Assembly (NCBI GenBank): GCA_021324295.1
Contig: JAJPJJ010000031.1
Coordinates: 1-64,000, forward strand
Direction: 5' to 3'
DNA: 64,000 bases
Origin: Bacillota bacterium
Lineage (GTDB): Bacteria > Sysuimicrobiota > Sysuimicrobiia > Sysuimicrobiales > Segetimicrobiaceae
Program-made: the position numbers and the translations under genes
The notes under the pieces: model-generated
The model's database searches: none
The model's input: only the letters and a program-made list of their open reading frames with translations
Told to the model about the DNA's origin: nothing
Shown here: in pieces, positions 9,379 through 24,656 of the stretch
Position numbering within the stretch: the first letter of the stretch is position 1
Layout of the letters: each line of letters opens with the position of its first letter

Positions 9379-10044
9379 TCAGACGAGGCCGCGGCGCGCG
9401 CGGCCCGCGGCCGCCCCCGTCGGCGCCTTGGCCCGGTGCCGCTCGTAGTATCGCCGCGCCTTCGCGCGGTTGCCGCATCCTTTCATGTCGCACCACCGGC
9501 GGCTGCGGTTGCGGCTCATGTCCATGAACAGCCAGTCGCAGTCGGCCCCCGCACACTGCCGGACGCGCTTCAGATCGGGCGAGACGAGCAGGTCCGCCGC
9601 CGAGCGCGCGACCGGCCACAGCACCCGCTCGAGCGCCTCCCCGTCCTCGATCCATCCCCACACGAAGCCGCCGGCCCGCCGTTCGATGCGCTGGCGGGCC
9701 AGCGCCCTGCCGAGCATCGCGTTCAGCGCGGCCATGTCGCCCTGATCCGGAGCGCGCAGGCTCGCCACCGCCGCGAAGAGCCTGAACAGCGCCTCGCGGA
9801 ACCGCACCGCCTCCGCGAGGGTCCGGGCCGCCTCCTCCGGACGGCGCTGCGCCGCCTGCGCGAGCTGCTGGGCCTCCCGGTCGCCGAGCGCTCCCGCCTG
9901 CCGGCCCCACGAGACGAGGTCCCGGTAGCTGTTGAGGCGCTCGGTCGGGTGGGCGCGCGATCCGCTGAGGGTGTTGACGTAGTCGAGGCACAATCGTCCG
10001 CCCGATAGCTCGAACACGTACTCGGTGCCGTCGCCCGATGCCAT
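9379..10044 (-). CDS. CGNR zinc-finger / ABATE-domain regulator
   Basis: The 221-residue protein opens with the ABATE-type segment (FELSGGRLCLDYVNTLSG) and ends with a CGNR zinc finger. The cysteines are in VRQCAGADC and WCDMKGCGNRAKARRYY, followed by basic residues. Proteins of this family are treated as DNA-binding, stress-linked transcriptional regulators, but target genes are mostly unknown. The ATG at 10044 has GAGGG four nt upstream; an in-frame GTG at 10068 is less well placed. A strong promoter (10175-10203) drives it, and a perfect palindrome sits in the leader between promoter and gene, as for an autoregulated repressor. The direct operon partner may be rsmI. Confidence 0.88.
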   Translation of the reverse strand: MASGDGTEYVFELSGGRLCLDYVNTLSGSRAHPTERLNSYRDLVSWGRQAGALGDREAQQLAQAAQRRPEEAARTLAEAVRFREALFRLFAAVASLRAPDQGDMAALNAMLGRALARQRIERRAGGFVWGWIEDGEALERVLWPVARSAADLLVSPDLKRVRQCAGADCDWLFMDMSRNRSRRWCDMKGCGNRAKARRYYERHRAKAPTGAAAGRARRGLV

Positions 10045-10128
10045 GCTGCCCTCGCGTATGGGTGGCACTACCGCGCCCGCGGCGCGTCGTGGCCGGGGCC
10101 TGCGCGCTTACACTAACCTCCAAAATTG

Positions 10129-10415: not shown

Positions 10416-10859
10416 ATGAGCGTTGACCCGAGCCCGTCCTGCGTCCGCGCCTGGATGAGCGCGCCGCTCCCGGCGATCACCCCGCGGACCACGGTCGCGA
10501 CCGCCCTGCGCCTGCTGCGCGAGCACCAGGCGCCCGCCCTACCGGTGTGCGACCAGGACCGGTTCCTGGGGCTTGTCGACGAGAAGGCGCTCCTGCGGCT
10601 GACGCCGTCCGAGGTGACGACCCTCGACGTCTACGAGCTGCGCGACGTGCTGGAGCGGCTCACCGTCGCGCGCGCGGTCGCGCCGGCGCCGGTCGCGGTG
10701 ACGCCCGAGACGCCGCTCGCCGACGCAGCCGGCGCCATGTCCCGGGCAGCCGCCGCCGTGGTCCCCGTGCTCGACGGCGGGCGCCTCGTCGGCCTCTTGC
10801 ACTGGACCGCCGTGCTGGCGGCGACGGCGGGAGGCGGCCGGCCGGTGGCCTCGCGCTAG
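10416..10859 (+). CDS. CBS-domain pair protein
   Basis: The 147-residue protein consists of two CBS motifs and little else. The first spans about residues 8-65 (WMSAPLPAITPRTTVATAL, then LPVCDQDRFLGLVDEKAL) and the second about 80-140 (VAVTPETPLADAAGAM, then VPVLDGGRLVGLLHWTA). CBS pairs bind adenosyl compounds such as AMP, ATP or SAM and usually act as sensors; no catalytic domain is attached. ATG 10416 has a purine-rich site (GGAGAGGGGG) about 8 nt upstream and fits the domain start better than the in-frame start 75 nt earlier. Its partner is not visible. It is followed after 165 nt by a 69-residue protein gene with a structured leader. Confidence 0.85.
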   Translation: MSVDPSPSCVRAWMSAPLPAITPRTTVATALRLLREHQAPALPVCDQDRFLGLVDEKALLRLTPSEVTTLDVYELRDVLERLTVARAVAPAPVAVTPETPLADAAGAMSRAAAAVVPVLDGGRLVGLLHWTAVLAATAGGGRPVASR

Positions 10860-11315: not shown

Positions 11316-13421
11316 ATGGCCAAGCGCGTGCACGTGATCCTGGCCTTTCATGCCCACGAGCCGCTGTGGGACCTGCCCGCGCACCTTCAGACCGGTGTGC
11401 CCGATATGCGCGTCGTCCAGGCGGTCCCGCCGGAGAACTACCTGCGGCGGCGGACCAAGGAAGGCCGCAACATCTATCGCGACCTACTGGTGTTCGCGCG
11501 GGCGATGGGCATCCGCGTCACCGTGGACATCTCCAACGACCTGTTGCACCAGATCAAGACGATCCTGCCGCGCACGTACGAGGAGTTGCAGCGCGCGTAC
11601 CGCGCGGGCACGATCTACCCGCTCTACACCACGGCGCACCATACGCACGCCGCGCTGCTCGAGCCGGCCGAGCTCGCCGAGGAGCTGCGCCTGAACGAGG
11701 AGGCGCTCCACGATCTCGTGGGCGCGCCCCGGCCGCGGCACCGGGTGTTCTTCTTCACGGAGTGCTCGGCGCACCCGCGGTTCTTCCCGGTGCTCGAGGA
11801 CGCGGGCATCGAGGCGATCGTCCACACGCACATCAACGACCGGAACGGGGTGGTCACGCTCTCGGATCCGTCCTTCGACTACGTCCACCGCCCGTTCCTG
11901 ATGGGGCGTCGGCTCGTCGCCCTCCCGCGCCACTTCCGCGTCTCGCAGGAGATCTGGCGCCCGATCACGCGGATGTATCCCCAGGAGGTCAAGTCCCAGG
12001 GGTACCTCATGGGCGCGTACTACGTCTTCGACACGGAGTACCGGGAGAAGCGGCTCTTGGAGTTTCCGATCGACCGCGCGCAGGGCGTCGACGAGTACGC
12101 CGGGATCCTCGAGGACGCGCTCGATGCGGCCCCGGACGATGGGCTGGTACTGTACATCCAGGACCTCGAGCTGATGGACTTCGGCGACGTGGCTCTCGAC
12201 GTGCTGCGCGCCGCCTGGACGCGGGTGCGCGAGTCGTCGCGCGTCGAGATCCGCTTCGAGACCCCGGACGAGTACCTCGACGGCCTGCCGGGGCCGCCGC
12301 CCGCGCGGGTGGAGCACCAGGGGATGGGGTGGGCGCCCGAGACGCGGGTCCTCCTGCGCAGCGACGGCCACTACCCGCCGCTTTACGCGGGCGAGTACGG
12401 CGGGCGGGACGTCGTCCCGCAGATCTTCCGCGCGCACCCGTTCATCTATTGGGAGCCGGGTAAGTACCTCGTGGGGCTGTTCGCGTGGCTGCTGCGGATG
12501 TTTGGCTATGGACCGATGATCGGCGTCCACGCCGGGGTCCTCTTGGATGAGGGGTACCAGCTCAACCGCTTCCCGCTCGAGAAGCGCCTCGCCGTCGGGT
12601 TGCGGTTGCTCAAGCAGGCCGACGACTGGGGCTGGCAGCCCAGCGAGGCGCTGAACAAGCGGCCCTACCTGTACGGGCTGATGATCGCCGATGCGCTCAT
12701 GGTGATGCTGCAGTTCTACCCGGACCGGTTCCCGATGGCCGAGGACCGCCTCGACCCCCGGCTGCTCGTGGGGCTCGGGCGGCTGCCCGAGGGGCTGCTC
12801 GATACCCGCATCGCGTACCTCCGGTTCGGGCTCGAGCGGCTGCGCGAGGAGCGGCCCGACTACGACCCGGGCGAAGCGCTGCGGCAGCTCGACTACGCGA
12901 TCGACTTTCGCGACAAGGCCGGGCGCGGCGTCGAGCACCTCATCGAGGCCTACCGCGCGCTCACCGGGGACTTCCGCCACCCGGGGCTCTGGCACCGGGT
13001 CCTGCTCGAGGTGCGGGAGCACTGCCGGAACGTCTTCCTCTGCCTGGACCACCTGCAGCGCACGTGGATCGCCGCGGGCGAGGCGGACTTCCTGCTGGAG
13101 GCGATGTACCGGTACCTGTACGACCTGTACCCGCCTCGCTTTCCGGAGATCCTCGACGAGGTGGACCGCGGGACGCCGGCGGAGCGCGTGTACCTCGGCA
13201 TCCGTCTGCTGCACGTGGCGATCCCGCAGGACTCGCCCGTCGTCGGGCGCTCGATCAACACGCTCGTGGTCGCGCCCGACACGCTCATCATCGCGCTGCG
13301 CCGGGGGCCGCGGATGCTCGTGCCTCGGGGCGATACGATCCTGCAGGCCGGCGACCGGATCACGATCGCGACGACGCGAGGCGGCGAGGTGCGCTTCGAG
13401 GACATCGTGGCAGCGCGCTGA
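11316..13421 (+). CDS. GH57 glycoside hydrolase fused to a C-terminal RCK_C (TrkA-C) domain
   Basis: The N-terminal part is a GH57 barrel that acts on alpha-glucans. The first motif is VILAFHAHEPLWDLP (residues 8-22), the likely nucleophile lies in FFFTECSAHP (E149), and the likely acid/base in YIQDLELMDF (D283). A helical region follows (about 430-620). Residues 630-701 (IPQDSPVVGRSINTLVVAPD, then LVPRGDTILQAGDRI) match RCK_C, the ligand-binding domain of potassium-channel regulators, which in several proteins binds c-di-AMP. I know no standard GH57 with this tail. ATG 11316 has AGGAGA upstream and a TACAAT box close by. It heads the glgE-treS/mak-treZ operon and could be a branching or transferase step under ligand control. 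Confidence 0.88.
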   Translation: MAKRVHVILAFHAHEPLWDLPAHLQTGVPDMRVVQAVPPENYLRRRTKEGRNIYRDLLVFARAMGIRVTVDISNDLLHQIKTILPRTYEELQRAYRAGTIYPLYTTAHHTHAALLEPAELAEELRLNEEALHDLVGAPRPRHRVFFFTECSAHPRFFPVLEDAGIEAIVHTHINDRNGVVTLSDPSFDYVHRPFLMGRRLVALPRHFRVSQEIWRPITRMYPQEVKSQGYLMGAYYVFDTEYREKRLLEFPIDRAQGVDEYAGILEDALDAAPDDGLVLYIQDLELMDFGDVALDVLRAAWTRVRESSRVEIRFETPDEYLDGLPGPPPARVEHQGMGWAPETRVLLRSDGHYPPLYAGEYGGRDVVPQIFRAHPFIYWEPGKYLVGLFAWLLRMFGYGPMIGVHAGVLLDEGYQLNRFPLEKRLAVGLRLLKQADDWGWQPSEALNKRPYLYGLMIADALMVMLQFYPDRFPMAEDRLDPRLLVGLGRLPEGLLDTRIAYLRFGLERLREERPDYDPGEALRQLDYAIDFRDKAGRGVEHLIEAYRALTGDFRHPGLWHRVLLEVREHCRNVFLCLDHLQRTWIAAGEADFLLEAMYRYLYDLYPPRFPEILDEVDRGTPAERVYLGIRLLHVAIPQDSPVVGRSINTLVVAPDTLIIALRRGPRMLVPRGDTILQAGDRITIATTRGGEVRFEDIVAAR

Positions 13422-13448: not shown

Positions 13449-15455
13449 ATGGAACACCGCACACGCGACACAGGCTCCCGCGTCGTCATCGAGGGGGTAA
13501 CCCCGGAGGTCGACGGCGGCCGCTTTCCGATCAAGCGGGCGGTCGGGGAGGCGGTCATCGTCGAGGCGGACATCTTCGCAGACGGGCACGACGAGCTGGC
13601 GGCCGTCCTGCTCTACCGCCGCGAGGGGACCGCGCGGTGGACGGAGGTGCCGCTCACCCCGCTCGGGGGCGACCGCTGGCGGGGCGAGTTCACGGTCACG
13701 GAGCTGGGATGCTACCGGTACACCCTCCTGGGCTGGGTCGACCGGTTCGCGACGTGGCGCCGCGACCTCGTCCGCCGCCTCGAGGCGGGGCAGGACGTCG
13801 CGGTGCACCTGGCGATCGGGGCGGCCCTGGTGCGCGCGGCGCTCCGGCGCGCGGTGGGCGCCGATGCCGCCCGCCTGGCGGATGCCGCGGACGCGCTCGC
13901 GGCGGGCGGGGAGGCCGGCCGGCGGACCGCGCTCTCCCCGGAGCTGCGGGACGCGATGGCCCGGCATCCGGATCGAGCGGGCGCCGCGATGTACGAGAAG
14001 GAGCTTGCGGTGATCGTCGACCGGGAGCGCGCGCGCCGGAGCGCCTGGTACGAGATGTTCCCGCGGTCCTGCGCGCGCGAGCCCGGGCGGCACGGGACGT
14101 TCGCGGACTGCGAGGCGCGGCTCCCGTACGTCGCCTCGATGGGGTTCGACGTGCTCTACCTGCCGCCGATCCATCCGATCGGCCGGACGCACCGGAAGGG
14201 ACGCAACAACGCCGAGGTCGCCGGCCCCGACGACCCTGGCAGCCCGTGGGCGATCGGGGGGCCGGAGGGGGGGCACACCGCCGTGCACCCCCAGCTCGGC
14301 ACGCTCGCGGACTTCCGGCGGCTGCTCGCGGCCGCCCGGCGCTACGGGCTGGAGGTCGCCCTCGACCTCGCGTTCCAGTGCTCGCCCGACCACCCGTACG
14401 TCACGGAGCATCCCGAGTGGTTCCGCTGGCGGCCCGACGGCACGATCCAGTACGCCGAGAACCCGCCGAAGAAGTACCAGGACATCTACCCGCTCGACTT
14501 CGAGACGCCGGCCTGGCGCGAGCTGTGGGACGAGGCGCTCGGCGTCGTGCGCTTCTGGATCGACGAGGGCGTGCGCATCTTCCGCGTGGACAACCCGCAC
14601 ACGAAGCCGTTCCGGTTCTGGGAGTGGCTGATCGGGCGGGTCCGGGAGGAGCACCCGGACGTGCTGTTCCTCGCCGAGGCCTTCACCCGTCCCAAGGTCA
14701 TGTACCGGCTGGCGAAGCTGGGCTTCAACCAGTCCTACACATACTTCGCGTGGCGCAATACGAAACAGGAGCTCACCGAGTACTTCACGGAGCTCGCGCA
14801 CTCGCCCGTGCGCGAGTTCTTCCGCCCGCACCTCTGGCCCAATACGCCCGATATCCTGACGGCGTACCTTCAGGATGGCGGCCGGGCCGCGTTCGCGGTG
14901 CGGCTCGTGCTCGCCGCCACCCTCGGCGCCGGGTACGGCATCTACGGCCCGGCGTTCGAGCTCTGCGAGCACCGCTCCGCCGCCCCGGGAAGCCCGCCGC
15001 CCGCCAGCGAGGAATATTTGAACTCCGAGAAGTACGAGATCAAGCACTGGGATCTCGACCGGCCGGACAGCCTGCGCGGGCTCATCGCGCAGGTGAACGG
15101 CATCCGGCGGGAGAACCCCGCGCTGTGGCACGACTGGGGCCTGCGGTTCCACGGGATCGACAACGAGCAGCTCCTCTGCTACAGCAAGCACACGCCGGAC
15201 CGGAGCAACGTCATCCTCGTGGTGGTCAACCTGGACCCGCATCATCCTCAGTCCGGCTGGACCGCCCTCTCCGTGGACGAGCTGGGCATCGCGCCCGAGG
15301 GGTCCTACGTGGCGCACGATCTGTTGAGCGGCGCCCGCTACGCCTGGACGGGCGCGCGGAACTACGTGCACCTCGACCCCCGCAGCGCGCCCGCGCACAT
15401 CCTGCGCGTGGAGCGCGCCCCGGCGCGGCCCGGGGGCGCCTCCCCGCAGGGGTAG
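13449..15455 (+). CDS. glgE: Alpha-1,4-glucan:maltose-1-phosphate maltosyltransferase
   Basis: GlgE (GH13) transfers maltosyl units from maltose-1-phosphate to the growing alpha-1,4-glucan. The 668-residue protein has the family N-terminal beta domain ([19 protein letters not shown]), the helical insert, the barrel with [17 protein letters not shown], the nucleophile in [11 protein letters not shown] (D381) and the acid/base in [10 protein letters not shown] (E410). The 29-residue spacing equals that of Streptomyces GlgE (D394/E423). The signature [12 protein letters not shown] is also present. One nt separates its stop from the treS-mak start. With TreS and maltokinase in the next gene, the complete route trehalose to maltose to maltose-1-phosphate to glucan is encoded in two consecutive genes. 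Confidence 0.96.
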
Positions 15456-15456
15456 C

Positions 15457-18400
15457 ATGGTCAAGGCGATGCGCCGCGCCGCCGCCCCCACGATCCCCGA
15501 CGAGCACCCGCTGTGGTACAAGGACGCGATCGTCTACGAGCTGCACGTCCGGGCCTTCTCCGACAGCGACGCAGACGGGATCGGCGACTTTCGCGGGCTG
15601 ACGGACAAGCTCGACTACCTCCGGGACCTCGGCGTCACGGCGCTGTGGCTGCTGCCGTTCTATCCTTCCCCGCTGAGGGACGACGGCTACGACATCGCGG
15701 ACAACACCGGCATCCACCCGTCCTACGGCACGATGCGGTCGTTCCAGACGTTCCTGCGGGAGGCGCACCGGCGCGGGCTGCGGGTGATCACCGAGCTCGT
15801 GCTCAACCACACGTCCGACCAGCACCCGTGGTTCCAGCGGGCACGGCGCGCGCCGCCGGGCAGCCGGGCGCGCGACTTCTACGTCTGGAGCGATACCCCC
15901 GACCGGTACCGCGACGCGCGCATCATCTTCAAGGACTTCGAGTCCTCGAACTGGGCGTTCGATCCGGTGGCCAAGGCGTACTACTGGCACCGGTTCTACG
16001 CGCACCAGCCGGACCTCAACTATGACTCGCCGGACGTGCGGCAGGCGATGCTCGAGGTCGTGGACTTCTGGCTCGAGCAGGGGGTCGACGGCCTGCGGCT
16101 GGACGCGGTGCCGTACCTGTACGAGCGGGAGGGCACGACCGGCGAAAACCTCCCGGAGACGCACGCGTTCCTCCGGGAGCTCCGGCGCCACATCGACGCG
16201 CGGTTCGCGCACCGCATGCTGCTCGCGGAGGCCAACCAGTGGCCCGAGGACGCGATCGCCTACTTTGGCGACGGCGACGAGTGCCACATGTCGTTTCACT
16301 TCCCGCTGATGCCGCGCCTCTTCATGTCGATCTACATGGAGGACCGGTTCCCGATCGTGGAGATCCTCCAGCAGACCCCGCCGATCCCGGACACCTGCCA
16401 GTGGGCGCTCTTCCTGCGCAACCACGACGAGCTGACGCTGGAGATGGTCACGGACGAGGACCGGGACTACATGTACCGGGTGTACGCGCGCGACCCGCAC
16501 GCCCGGGTGAACCTCGGCATCCGCCGGCGGCTCGCCCCGCTGCTGGGGAACAACCGCCGCCGGATCGAGCTGATGAACGGCCTGCTGTTCTCCATCCCCG
16601 GGACGCCGATCATCTACTACGGGGACGAGATCGGGATGGGCGACAACATCTACCTCGGCGACCGCAACAGCGTGCGCACGCCGATGCAGTGGAGCGCCGA
16701 CCGGAACGCCGGGTTCTCCCGCGCCAACCCGCAGCAGCTCTACCTGCCGGTCATCATCGACCCCGAGTACCACTACGAGACGGTCAACGTCGAGGCCCAG
16801 CAGAGCAACCCGCACTCGCTCCTGTGGTGGATGAAGCGCCTGGTCGCGCTGCGCCAGCGGTTTCGCGCCTTCGGGCGCGGGACCCTGGAGTTCCTGCAGC
16901 CGGAGAACCGGAAGGTGCTGGCGTTCCTCCGCCGGTACGAGGACGAGCTGATCCTCGTGGTGGCCAACCTCTCGCGCTTCGTGCAGTACGTCGAGCTCAA
17001 CCTCGCGCCGCTCAGGGGGATGGTGCCGGTGGAGCTCTTCGGGCGCACCGAGTTCCCGCCGGTCGGCGACCTGCCGTACTTCATCACGCTGGGGCCGCAC
17101 GCGTTCTACTGGTTTGCGCTCGAGCCTCCGCGGGTCGCGGAAGTCGCGGTCCCCTCGCGCGAGGCGACCGCGCGCCTGCCCGTCCTGTCGGTGGCGGGCG
17201 GCTGGGAGCGCGCGTTCGAGGCCCGCGCCCGGGCCCCGCTCGCGGACGCGCTCGCCACCTACCTGCGGGGCCGCCGCTGGTTCGGCGGGAAGGCGCGGCG
17301 GATCCGCGCGGTGCGGATCCTCGAGGCCCTCCGCATGGCCTACGGCGAGTCCGCGGCGTACGTGACGCTCGTCCACGTCGACTACACCGAAGGCGACGCG
17401 GAGACGTACGCGCTCCCGCTGGCCTTTGCCGCGGGGCCGCGGGCCATCCAGGTGCAGCAGGAGCTGCCGCAGGTCATCGTGGCGCGCGTGCGCGCCGGCG
17501 AGACGGAGGAGGGCCTCCTCTACGACGCCGTCGGCGACCGCGAGTGGTGCAGCGCCCTGCTGGACGCGATCGGCCGCCGGCGGCGGCTGCGGGGCGACGC
17601 GGGCGAGGTGGTCGCGCACCCGCTGCCGGAGTTCCGGCGCGCGCTCGCGGACCGTCCCCCCGGCATGGAGCCCTCCGTGCTCAAGGCGGAGCAGAGCAAC
17701 ACGTCGGTGCTCTACGGCGACCGTTTCATCCTCAAGCTCTTCCGGCGCCTCGAACAGGGCGAGAACCCCGAGCTGGAGATCGGGAGGTTCCTCACGGAGC
17801 GCGCGGCGTATCCGCACACGCCCGCGGTCGCCGGCACGGTCGAGTACCGGGTGGACCGCGCGGCGCCGATGACCCTCGCCATCCTCGAGACGTTCGTGCC
17901 CAACGAGGGAGACGCGTGGCGGTACACGCTCGACACGCTCGGCCACTACTACGACCGCATCGCCGCCTCGCCCGGCCGGCCCGAGCGGGACGGCGCCGCC
18001 CTGCTGCCGCCGGAGCCGCTCGTGGACCTGGCCGGCCGCGACGTCCCGGCGGATGCGTACGCGCTCGTCGGCGAGTACCTCCCGGCCGCGCAGTTGCTCG
18101 GGCAGCGCACCGCCGAGCTGCACGCGGCGCTCGCGGCCGCCCGCGACGATCCGGCGTTTGCGCCCGAGCCGTTCGGGGCGCTCGACCAGCGGTCGCTGTA
18201 CCAGTCCGTGCGCGGATTGGCCCGGCAGACCCTGCAGGTGCTCCGTCGAACCGCCCGGGACCTCCCCGAGGACGCGCGGGAGCCGGCGCAGCGGGTCCTC
18301 GACAGCGAAGACGAGATCCTGCGCCGCGCCAGGAGCATCCTCGACCGGAAGATCGGCGGGGTCAAGATCCGCTGCCACGGGGATTACCACCTGGGGCAGG

Positions 18401-18846
18401 TGCTGCACACGGGCAAGGACTTTGTGATCATCGACTTCGAGGGCGAGCCCGCCCGGCCGTTCGGCGAGCGGCGCATCAAGCGACCGCCGCTGCGCGACGC
18501 GGCCGGGATGCTGCGCTCGTTCCACTACGCCGCGCACGTTGCGCTGAGCCAGCAGGTCGCGCGCGGAGGCGCGGCGCGCCCCGAGGCGCAGGCCGCGCTC
18601 GAGTGGGGCGCGCGCGCGTGGACGCTGTGGGCGTCGGTCGCGTTCATGAAGGGGTACCTCGACGTGGCCGGCCCGGCGGGGATCCTCCCCGGACGCCCGG
18701 AGGAGATCCAGGCGCTGTTGGACATCCACGTGCTGGAGAAGGTGATCTACGAGCTCGGCTACGAGCTGGGCAATCGCCCGGAGTGGGCGCGGATCCCGCT
18801 GCGCGGGATCCTGCAGCTCATCGGGGCCGAGCCGCCCGCCGGCTGA
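15457..18846 (+). CDS. treS: Trehalose synthase-maltokinase fusion (TreS-Mak)
   Basis: This bifunctional 1129-residue protein isomerises trehalose to maltose and phosphorylates maltose with ATP. The N-terminal GH13 TreS domain (about 1-560) has LRLDAVPYL with nucleophile D216, [11 protein letters not shown] with E258, and FLRNHDEL with D324. The C-terminal maltokinase domain (about 590-1129) has the N-terminal [11 protein letters not shown] motif, the catalytic loop [11 protein letters not shown] (H974, D976) and the metal-binding [10 protein letters not shown] (D993). The fused form is known from other GlgE-pathway bacteria. The start at 15457 is 1 nt from the glgE stop and the stop overlaps the treZ start by one base, so the genes are likely coupled. 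Confidence 0.96.
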
Positions 18847-20705
18847 TGTCGGGCGGGCCGGGGCACGCGCCGTCGCTCGGCGCCGTCCCGCTGGGCGACG
18901 GGCGGTGCCGCTTCCGGGTCTGGGCGCCCGGGCACGCGGTCGCGGTGCGCCTGCTGTCCGCGCCCGAGCGCCTCGTGCCGCTCGCGCCGCAGGCCGCCGG
19001 GTATCACGAGGGCATCGTCCCCGCCGTCGCGCCGGGCGCACTGTACCTGTACCGGCTGGACGGCCGCCTCGAGCGGCCGGACCCCGCCTCGCGCGGCCAG
19101 CCTCGCGGCGTGCACGGCCCCTCGGAGGTCCCGCACGGGCCGCAGTTTCCGTGGACCGACGAGGGCTGGCGCGGCCGGCCGCTGTCCGAGTACGTCATCT
19201 ACGAGCTGCACGTCGGGACGTTCTCGCCCGAGGGCACCTTCGAGGGGGTCGTCCGCCGCCTCGATGACCTCGCGGACCTCGGCATCACCGCGCTGGAGCT
19301 GATGCCGGTGGCCCAGTACCCCGGCGACCGCAACTGGGGATACGACGGCGTCTACCTCTTCGCCGTCCACCCCGCGTACGGCGGCCCCCAGGGCTTGCGG
19401 CGCCTCGTGGACGCCTGCCACCGGCGCGGCATCGCCGTCGTGCTCGACGTCGTCTACAACCACCTCGGCCCGGAGGGCAACTACCTCGAGGCCTTCGGCC
19501 CCTACTTCACCGACCGGTACCGGACGCCGTGGGGGGCCGCCCTCAACTTCGACGGCCCGCACAGCGACGAGGTCCGCCGCTTCTTCATCGAGAACGCGCT
19601 GATGTGGATCACGGAGTTCCACATCGATGCGCTCCGGCTCGACGCGGTGCACGCGATCGTGGATCAGTCGGCCCGGCCCTTCCTGCAGGAGCTCGCCGAG
19701 GTCGTGCACGCGCACGCCGAGCGGCTGGGCCGGCGGGTGCACGTCATCGCCGAGAGCAACCTGAACGTCCCGCGTCTGCTCCGCCCGCCCGAGCGGGGTG
19801 GGTACGGGCTCGACGCGCAGTGGAGCGACGACTTCCACCATGCCCTGCACGTCCTGCTCACCGGCGAGCGGACCGGGTACTACCAGGACTTCGGCCGGCT
19901 CCGCGACCTCGAGACGGCGATGCGGGAGGGGTTCGTGCTCGCCGGCGGCTACTCCGCGTTCCGGCAGCGCCGCCACGGCGCCTCCTCGCGCGACGTGCCG
20001 GCGGAGCAGCTCATCGTGTGCGCCCAGAACCACGACCAGGTCGGCAACCGCGCGCTCGGCGAGCGCCTGAGCCGGCTCGTCTCGTTCGAGGCGCTCAAGC
20101 TGGCGGCCGGGGCCGTGCTGCTCTCCCCGTTCGTCCCGCTGCTCTTCATGGGCGAGGAGTACGGGGAGACCGCGCCGTTTCTCTACTTCACCAGCCACAC
20201 CGATCCCGGGCTCGCCGAGGCCGTGCGCCGGGGCCGGCGGGAGGAGTTCGCCGCGTTCGCCTGGGGGGAGGAGGTGCCGGATCCACAGGACGCGGAGACG
20301 TTTCGGCGGTCGCGGCTCGACCACGCGCTCCGCGGCGCCGGCCGGCACCGCGCCCTGCGGGCGCTGTATGCCGAGCTCCTCCGGCTGCGCAAAGGGATCC
20401 CGGCGCTCGCCCGCCTCAGCAAGGAGACGATGGAAGTGAGCGGATCGGAGCCGGAGCGCACGCTCCTCCTCCGCCGGTGGAGTGCCGGCAGCGAGATCCT
20501 CGCGGCGTTCAACTTCGGGGCGCACCCGGCGCGGCTCCGGCTCCCGGCCCGCGCGGGGCGCTGGCGCGCGGCGCTCGACTCGGCGGACGCGCGCTGGGCC
20601 GGGCCCGGGCGCTCGGCGCCCCCCGAGATCCGCTCGGACGGCGAGGTCGTCCTGACCGTTGCCCCGACCGCCTTCGTGCTCCTCTGCCGCGAGGGGGAGG
20701 GGTGA
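18846..20705 (+). CDS. treZ: Malto-oligosyltrehalose trehalohydrolase
   Basis: TreZ releases trehalose from the end of maltooligosyl-trehalose. The 619-residue GH13 protein begins with a carbohydrate-binding beta domain (FRVWAPGHAVAVRL), has the family marker IYELHVGTFSPEGTF, nucleophile in ALRLDAVHAI (D266), acid/base in HVIAESNLN (E303) and the third carboxylate in AQNHDQVGNR (D397). FNFDGPHSDEVRRF separates it from branching enzyme. Its usual partner TreY is not in the window, so either treY lies elsewhere or the chain end is made by another enzyme. It overlaps treS-mak by 1 nt and the downstream transporter gene by 4 nt. Confidence 0.94.
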   Translation: MSGGPGHAPSLGAVPLGDGRCRFRVWAPGHAVAVRLLSAPERLVPLAPQAAGYHEGIVPAVAPGALYLYRLDGRLERPDPASRGQPRGVHGPSEVPHGPQFPWTDEGWRGRPLSEYVIYELHVGTFSPEGTFEGVVRRLDDLADLGITALELMPVAQYPGDRNWGYDGVYLFAVHPAYGGPQGLRRLVDACHRRGIAVVLDVVYNHLGPEGNYLEAFGPYFTDRYRTPWGAALNFDGPHSDEVRRFFIENALMWITEFHIDALRLDAVHAIVDQSARPFLQELAEVVHAHAERLGRRVHVIAESNLNVPRLLRPPERGGYGLDAQWSDDFHHALHVLLTGERTGYYQDFGRLRDLETAMREGFVLAGGYSAFRQRRHGASSRDVPAEQLIVCAQNHDQVGNRALGERLSRLVSFEALKLAAGAVLLSPFVPLLFMGEEYGETAPFLYFTSHTDPGLAEAVRRGRREEFAAFAWGEEVPDPQDAETFRRSRLDHALRGAGRHRALRALYAELLRLRKGIPALARLSKETMEVSGSEPERTLLLRRWSAGSEILAAFNFGAHPARLRLPARAGRWRAALDSADARWAGPGRSAPPEIRSDGEVVLTVAPTAFVLLCREGEG

Positions 20706-22511: not shown

Positions 22512-24656
22512 TCAACCCGCCCGCACCGCGCCGTCGAGCTCGATCGAGGTGGTCTGCTCCCACGTCTCGCCCGGCGCGAGGACGACCGGCCAGCGCAGCG
22601 TGACCATCGCGCCCTGGTAGTTCTTCTCGTATCCGCCCTCGGAGTTCGAGATCGTGAACAGGGGCAGGCCCCAGGCCCGGGCGGGGATCGACGGGGAGAA
22701 CGCCAGCACGAGGCCGGAGACCGTCTCGGCGACCGCGACCCGCGCGCTCTCCCCCAGCTCGCCCGGGTCGTGGAGCGCGCGGCGCTCGGTCCCCGCCTGC
22801 ATCCACACCGTACCGGGCGCCCCGAACACGCCGAGGTTCCACTCTTCCGCGACGAGGGCCCGCAGGGGTTCCTCGCCCGCCCAGGCGAGGCGCGTCGTGT
22901 GGTCGAGCCCGCGGCGGCCCGCGCGCACCTCGAGGCGGCGCTCGATCGCGGCGCGGCCTCCCCCGACCGCGGCCTCGCGCTTGAGCTCGACGCTCGCCGC
23001 CCCACCGGCGCGCTCGATCCGCCACGCGTACGCGCCGGTGGCGAAGCGGCCCAGGTCCTCCTGCTCGTCCCGCCAGAGCTGCTCCCGTGTCGTGCCCTCC
23101 GGCAGGAGATGCACGCGCAGCGTCGTGCGCCGCGCGCGGTCGTAGACGAGCAACCGCTCCAGCCCGGGCTCCTTGATGCGCACCGCGGTGTGGATCGATT
23201 CGGGACTCCCGTCGGCGCCGCGCGCGGCCGCCTGCTCCGCGGCCCGCTGCAGGTCGGCGTGGTACGCCTCCGGCCGTCTCGTCAGCACGTTCCCCAGGTG
23301 GCGGCGCGACGGCCGGTCGTCCCACTCGAGGAGGCTCCCGCCCCGGGCCGGATCGACCGTGCACACGGCGAGATCGCTGGAGAGGAGCACCTCGGTCCGG
23401 CCGTCGCCGTCCAGATCGGCGGCCTCGCCCCCGGCGTAGGGGCCGCGATGCCGCTCCCGGTCGGCGATCGCCTCCGCGGCGATCAGGTGGCTGAACGCCG
23501 CGCCGCGGATGTGGGGCAGGTACACGCCGCCGAATACCCCGTGCCAGTACGGGCAGTTGCACTCCCCGGCCCACAGCTCGTCGAGCGCCCGCTCCCGCTC
23601 CGGCCCGGGCGGCAGCGCGTGGACCTTCCGGCCCGCGCGCAGCGCCAGGTGGTGGAGCACGTTGACCTCCGGGTACCGGACGAGGAAGTGCCGCCAGAAG
23701 CCGCCCCGCACGAACGGGAGCACCTCGCGCCGCCCGCCGACCTCGAGGTCGTGCCTGATCCGCGCCAGGCGGCCGGCGCGGTCCGGCGCGAGCGCCCACG
23801 CGGCCATCTCCTCGTACGTGCCGGTCGGCAGGTAGATCCTCCCTGCCGGCTCGCGAGAGCGCCGGTAGTCGCCGGGCGGCATCACCTCGACCCACGGCGT
23901 CGCCTCGAGCGCCTCGAAGAACTGCTCCACCCACCCGCGCTCCCAGCAGTGGGCGTAGGTGGTCGGCCACATCCCAAACTTCTCGCCATCGTCGCCCATC
24001 AGCGCGAGGTCGAGCGGGGCCTCCCGCCCCTCCACGCGCACCTCGGTGTCGGCGAGGGTGCGGAGGTAGGCGAGCACGTCCGCGACCGTCGCCCACGGGA
24101 TGAGGTAGCGCAGCGATCGCAGGCTCGGGAAGATCGCGAGCGGCACGCCCTCCTCTTCGGTGATGTAGTACCCGAGGAGCTCCGCCTCGTCGAGGCCGAC
24201 CCCATGGAAGTGCGTGTCGTCGACGATGGTGTAGCGGACGCCGGCCTGGCCGAGCGGCCGCGCGAGGTGTGGCTCCCAGACGCGCTCCGCGAGCCAGAGG
24301 CCCTCCGCCGTGCACCCGAAGTCGTCGGCCACCGCGCGCGTGAGCTTCTCGATCTGCCCCCGCTTGTCCGCATCGGGGATGATCGAGAGGATCGGCTCGT
24401 AGTAGCCGCCCGTCAGGATCTCGACCTGGCCGCGGGCGACCAGCGCGCGGACGCGGCGCAGCAGGTCCGCGCGGTGGACGCGCAGCCAGTCGAGGAGCGG
24501 CCCGGAGTAGTGCAGGGCCAGGCGGATGCGGGGGTGCCGCTCGAGGGCGGCGACCATCGGGGCGTACGCCCGGTCGGTCGCCTCGGCCATCACGTGGTCG
24601 AAGTTGCCCACCGGCTGGTGGTTGTGGAGCGCGAGCGCGAGGACGATCCGGTGCAC
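22512..24656 (-). CDS. GH57 4-alpha-glucanotransferase/amylase-type enzyme
   Basis: The 714-residue protein matches the Thermococcus 4-alpha-glucanotransferase type of GH57. It has LALHNHQPVGNFDHV at the N-terminus, the nucleophile in GLWLAERVWEP (E124; E123 in the T. litoralis enzyme), the acid/base in LALMGDDGEKFGMWP (D222/D223), and long C-terminal beta domains of the DUF1925/1926 type ending near TISNSEGGYEKNY. It probably disproportionates malto-oligosaccharides or hydrolyses amylose in the cytoplasm; there is no signal peptide. The start is GTG 24656, six nt after the DHA2 transporter stop. It differs clearly from the GH57 at 11316, so the window holds two distinct GH57 types. It ends the glcDFE transcript. 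Confidence 0.92.
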   Translation of the reverse strand: MHRIVLALALHNHQPVGNFDHVMAEATDRAYAPMVAALERHPRIRLALHYSGPLLDWLRVHRADLLRRVRALVARGQVEILTGGYYEPILSIIPDADKRGQIEKLTRAVADDFGCTAEGLWLAERVWEPHLARPLGQAGVRYTIVDDTHFHGVGLDEAELLGYYITEEEGVPLAIFPSLRSLRYLIPWATVADVLAYLRTLADTEVRVEGREAPLDLALMGDDGEKFGMWPTTYAHCWERGWVEQFFEALEATPWVEVMPPGDYRRSREPAGRIYLPTGTYEEMAAWALAPDRAGRLARIRHDLEVGGRREVLPFVRGGFWRHFLVRYPEVNVLHHLALRAGRKVHALPPGPERERALDELWAGECNCPYWHGVFGGVYLPHIRGAAFSHLIAAEAIADRERHRGPYAGGEAADLDGDGRTEVLLSSDLAVCTVDPARGGSLLEWDDRPSRRHLGNVLTRRPEAYHADLQRAAEQAAARGADGSPESIHTAVRIKEPGLERLLVYDRARRTTLRVHLLPEGTTREQLWRDEQEDLGRFATGAYAWRIERAGGAASVELKREAAVGGGRAAIERRLEVRAGRRGLDHTTRLAWAGEEPLRALVAEEWNLGVFGAPGTVWMQAGTERRALHDPGELGESARVAVAETVSGLVLAFSPSIPARAWGLPLFTISNSEGGYEKNYQGAMVTLRWPVVLAPGETWEQTTSIELDGAVRAG

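Follow-up and report, generated by a model that had tools for sequence, protein, structure and literature searches.

RCK_C domains are known chiefly from ion transporters and channels, with a few regulators besides. In the window, the 64,000-nucleotide stretch of DNA analyzed here (GenBank assembly GCA_021324295.1, contig JAJPJJ010000031.1), such a domain appears to end a GH57-type alpha-glucan enzyme, which raises the question of whether this tail is a true RCK_C domain and, if so, what it might do on an enzyme of carbohydrate metabolism.

Domain architecture and fold of the fusion protein

The fusion protein is encoded by an intact open reading frame of 701 amino acids on the plus strand (11316-13421), with an ATG start and a stop codon at 13419-13421. 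It is divided as follows:

11316..13163, plus strand: GH57-type catalytic core and helical bundle, residues 1-616 (PF03065, 29.5 bits; top Foldseek matches all GH57; 19-sequence alignment)
13164..13418, plus strand: C-terminal extension, residues 617-701, with no counterpart in homologues outside the family whose C-terminus was read
13215..13388, plus strand: RCK_C/TrkA_C domain, residues 634-691 (PF02080, 50.3 bits; fold match to RCK_C structures)

The first-pass annotation had recognized an RCK_C pattern at residues 630-701, and this was borne out by the Pfam search, in which TrkA_C (PF02080) matched residues 634-691 well above its cut-off (50.3 versus 27 bits, E 2.3e-13) and Glyco_hydro_57 (PF03065) matched residues 9-172 (29.5 bits, cut-off 21.2). 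When the whole protein was searched by sequence against solved structures, the best match was the RCK_C domain of TM1088B (residues 627-693, E 3e-9), and no significant match besides RCK_C domains was obtained; the tail alone matched the same domain with an E value of 1e-10. All four tails known from this and three further genomes retain VPRGDT and GD, residues characteristic of the TM1088B/TrkA class.

When the tail (residues 617-701) was modeled separately in AlphaFold, as a single chain from 13 RCK_C sequences, the model reached a mean pLDDT of 85 and a pTM of 0.71. Its best Foldseek matches were all RCK domains, led by 3jxo/3l4b (E 5e-6, TM about 0.69, rmsd 1.3 Å) and followed by TrkA and then by CpaA, KhtT, MthK and BusR. 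The predicted structure confirms an RCK_C fold for the tail, and the alternative of an ordinary GH57 beta domain was not seen. The full-length AlphaFold model, for which the alignment held only four tailed rows, gave a tail pLDDT of about 35 and was unusable as a guide to domain packing. Sequence and fold together confirm that this is a GH57 enzyme with a true RCK_C tail domain.

Our literature search found no paper naming GH57 together with TrkA-C and no precedent for an RCK_C-controlled carbohydrate enzyme; by the literature searched, the conserved GH57-RCK_C architecture is new.

Catalytic residues and likely activity of the GH57 part

GH57 catalysis employs Glu as the nucleophile and Asp as the proton donor (PMC6037648). 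The corresponding codons in the fusion gene are predicted to be:

11760..11762, plus strand: E149, predicted catalytic nucleophile (FFTECS), invariant and aligned by hhalign to the invariant E123 of ordinary GH57
12162..12164, plus strand: D283, predicted acid/base (YIQDLELMDFG), in an invariant D-x-E whose exact hhalign column is approximate

Because E149 and D283 are invariant in the 19-sequence alignment, the GH57 part of the fusion is probably active. Alignment with ordinary GH57 proteins by hhalign (probability 96%) pairs E149 with the invariant Glu of these proteins and puts D283 at the site of D-x-E. The (beta/alpha)7-barrel fold expected of GH57 is supported by the top 11 Foldseek matches of the full-length model, which are GH57 structures, though with TM-scores of only 0.35-0.42 by query length. 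No solved GH57 relative of this clade was detected by sequence profile at E 0.1, and no solved or characterized close homologue was found; this GH57 part is divergent from ordinary GH57.

Branching enzymes of GH57 carry the fingerprints HxHLP and ELF(Y)GHW (PMC11206854). In the fusion sequence, HAHEP (residues 12-16) replaces HxHLP and ELF(Y)GHW is absent, and judged by these published fingerprints the protein is most likely not a branching enzyme. For a DUF3536-type GH57 from another GlgE locus, 4-alpha-glucanotransferase action has been reported (PMC11206854). Our guess within the family for the fusion enzyme would be a 4-alpha-glucanotransferase or amylase-type activity, with moderate confidence at best.

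Operon context and metabolic pathway

The fusion gene lies between a CBS-pair gene and genes of glucan and trehalose metabolism, all on the same strand:

10416..10859, plus strand: CBS-pair protein, possible adenine-nucleotide sensor (PF00571, 67 bits; syntenic upstream of the fusion gene in 4/4 genomes)
13449..15455, plus strand: GlgE maltosyltransferase (PF11896 and PF21702)
15457..18846, plus strand: TreS-maltokinase fusion (TIGR02456 and TIGR02457, both above cut-off)
18846..20705, plus strand: TreZ-type GH13 (TIGR02402, 749 bits, cut-off 539)

That GH57-RCK_C heads a glgE-treS/mak-treZ operon, as first proposed from the open reading frames, agrees with the models for GlgE, TreS-maltokinase and TreZ, all of which match. 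The fusion gene and glgE are separated by 27 bp, glgE and treS-mak by 1 bp, and the stop of treS-mak and the start of treZ overlap (ATGA). The gene order of CBS protein, fusion gene, GlgE and TreS/Mak-type gene is common to all four tailed genomes. A putative stress regulator with an ABATE/CGNR zinc finger is encoded on the minus strand at 9379-10068 and has a counterpart ahead of the fusion gene in 4/4 genomes. Another GH57, an ordinary one of 4-alpha-glucanotransferase/amylase type, is located on the minus strand at 22512-24656, about 1.8 kb past the end of treZ.

The operon had also been read as an osmolyte (trehalose) pathway. Its enzymes were named correctly, but the route itself is looser than this reading implies. 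Despite the strong TreZ match (749 bits), no TreY model scored above cut-off in any of the four tailed genomes, and GT20 (OtsA type) occurs among these four only in the genome of the window. To the extent seen, then, the glucan-to-trehalose route is incomplete; better supported is the conversion of trehalose or maltose to glucan via TreS-Mak-GlgE.

Closest on the tree among the tail-less relatives is that of L003 (Elusimicrobia; support 90/74), from a cluster (L003:409-12144) in which a pair of Na+/H+ exchangers is encoded together with a CBS protein, three GH57 proteins, of which one has DUF3536, and an OtsA-OtsB fusion. The neighborhood of this single locus fits an ion/osmolyte setting.

Distribution, origin and selection

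The identical full-length architecture is present in three further genomes of the same family, which belong to another genus and share 78-79% identity with the window's protein over residues 1-701. Tail-less relatives with 32-50% identity occur in Elusimicrobia, Myxococcota/Deltaproteobacteria, Chloroflexi, Bacillota, Wallbacteria and Methanophagales; those readable to the C-terminus in their own loci, all but three contig-end fragments, end at about residue 616-640 without RCK_C. Tails past residue 640 reported by tblastn in two relatives (L008 and L017) are read-through beyond the stop and not a domain. Samples of 379, 400 and 341 genomes from three other phyla, taken as those of the Deltaproteobacteria/Myxococcota, Chloroflexi and Elusimicrobia loci, contained no further GH57-RCK_C fusion.

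The existence of tail-less homologues indicates that RCK_C is dispensable for the core fold, as would be expected of a functionless chance fusion or an assembly artefact. Such an origin is nevertheless very improbable, given that the junction is identical in four separate genome assemblies from two genera and that dN/dS is low. In the maximum-likelihood tree all tailed proteins fall into a single group (support 100/100), which a single gain is enough to explain, and the tail appears to have been acquired once, in the ancestor of the two genera, and kept since.

Purifying selection acts on the tail, whose dN/dS within the sister genus is 0.05-0.09. Between genera the value rises to 0.33-0.50 for the tail compared with 0.16-0.21 for the core, and identity is 62-68% for the tail versus 79-82% for the core. 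This faster divergence of the tail might be that of a loosely constrained module.

Among the RCK_C domains recovered from the phylum, close ones are carried by ClC-CBS-TrkA_C chloride channels, with 32-39% identity to the tail; such a channel is at most a candidate donor. The idea that the upstream CBS gene and the tail both derive from one ClC-CBS-TrkA_C gene was rejected, as the CBS protein is only weakly similar to the channels. An untailed GH57 relative from Dehalococcoidia (L009) has a TrkA_C protein encoded about 0.5 kb downstream, an association that we attribute to chance because it was seen at this locus only and not near its close relatives L011 and L012, within the sequence available around them, or in other genomes.

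Proposed role of the tail

RCK_C domains elsewhere are usually part of regulated proteins. The presence of one here suggests that an internal signal tunes the activity of the glucan enzyme, and we consider it somewhat probable, by analogy with other RCK_C proteins, that a dimerizing tail senses a small signal and tunes GH57 glucan processing alongside GlgE and TreS/maltokinase. An intracellular GH57 alpha-glucan enzyme would work with GlgE and TreS/maltokinase on storage glucan, and in the ancestor of the two genera it acquired its C-terminal RCK_C domain. The tail would pair two enzyme subunits and bind the small signal at the dimer interface, both as in other RCK_C domains, and glucan processing would then respond to the cell's ionic, nucleotide or osmotic state. 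Dimerization, ligand binding and allosteric control of the fusion enzyme are what we infer from these analogies.

Alternatively, the tail could be an oligomerization or stability module only, which makes the enzyme a dimer and senses no ligand. The faster divergence of the tail and its lack of a recognized ligand signature are in line with this, but the residues of the TM1088B/TrkA class (VPRGDT and GD) are kept in 4/4 tails and RCK_C domains are usually found on regulated proteins. Although ligand-free RCK_C can be dimeric, as in BusR (PMC8517857), we regard a purely structural tail as rather unlikely. A sensing RCK_C on a glucan enzyme, kept in two genera, would offer a direct and testable link from ion/osmotic signaling to carbon storage and trehalose metabolism, and GH57-RCK_C is a soluble, assayable RCK_C target.

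Is c-di-AMP the ligand?

The first-pass annotation went further and proposed c-di-AMP as the ligand, which is not supported as stated. Scored with the profile of the tail group, TM1088B reaches 66 bits and TrkA 52, CpaA follows with 33, and the c-di-AMP receptors BusR, KtrC, KhtT and KtrA come far below, ranging from 19 to 15. To our knowledge, neither TM1088B nor TrkA, the closest relatives, is an established c-di-AMP receptor. The c-di-AMP signature reported for RCK_C, (I/L)(I/L)X2DX1RX5N(I/L)(I/L) (PMC10117811), is present in KtrA (4xtt) and was found in 0/4 tails. In Streptomyces, c-di-AMP is bound by only two of six RCK_C proteins (PMC10117811). The genome of the window does encode a CdaA-type diadenylate cyclase with CdaA_N and DAC domains, but co-occurrence with a cyclase, a check suggested at the outset, does not discriminate and was rejected as evidence, because 39 out of 43 genomes from the phylum encode one.

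Several observations favor c-di-AMP nonetheless. CpaA is a c-di-AMP receptor (PMC5575661) whose RCK_C gives a gapless alignment with the tail profile (E 3.6e-7); the aligned part of this RCK_C likewise lacks the KtrA-type signature, so that this signature is not universal among receptors; on this account c-di-AMP keeps its place among the candidate ligands. The Foldseek matches of the tail model include the c-di-AMP complexes 5f29, 7agv and 7b5u, and a CBS protein is conserved upstream of the fusion gene. Weighing both sides, we judge it unlikely that c-di-AMP at the RCK_C dimer interface controls GH57 and ties glucan/trehalose turnover to the potassium/osmotic second messenger. That the tail binds c-di-AMP in the manner of CpaA, which would put a storage-glucan enzyme directly under this messenger through a covalently fused RCK_C, is quite doubtful.

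Comparison with known systems

The closest solved RCK_C domains to the tail, in both sequence and fold, are those of TM1088B/TrkA (3jxo, 3l4b and 4g65), and TM1088B has in common with it the pattern ending in VPRGDT. These proteins form potassium-channel gating rings in which RCK_C follows RCK_N, whereas in the fusion it follows a glycoside hydrolase and RCK_N is absent. The ClC-CBS-TrkA_C chloride channels (L027, L030, L031 and L035, from a related genus of the same family) have RCK_C domains that are among the phylum's closest to the tail. Unlike the fusion enzyme, they are membrane channels with two TrkA_C copies; our literature search found no paper in which ClC, chloride channel and TrkA-C domain are all named.

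On the enzyme side, the 4-alpha-glucanotransferase of T. litoralis (1k1x) and the GH57 branching enzymes share the fold and the catalytic Glu/Asp with the fusion enzyme, which differs from known GH57 in having no sequence-profile match at E 0.1, no branching fingerprints and another C-terminal domain. Streptomyces GlgX is likewise a glucan enzyme, described as being under allosteric control by c-di-GMP (PMC9530166), and offers a parallel in its control by a cyclic dinucleotide; it is a glycogen-debranching enzyme that responds to another nucleotide, and the accessible part of that source does not mention RCK_C. BusR, a GntR regulator, is a transcription factor and its RCK_C is distant from the tail (18.9 bits), but as a c-di-AMP-controlled module at the C-terminus of a non-transport protein (PMC8517857) it provides a precedent for a fused RCK_C sensor like that proposed for the GH57 enzyme.
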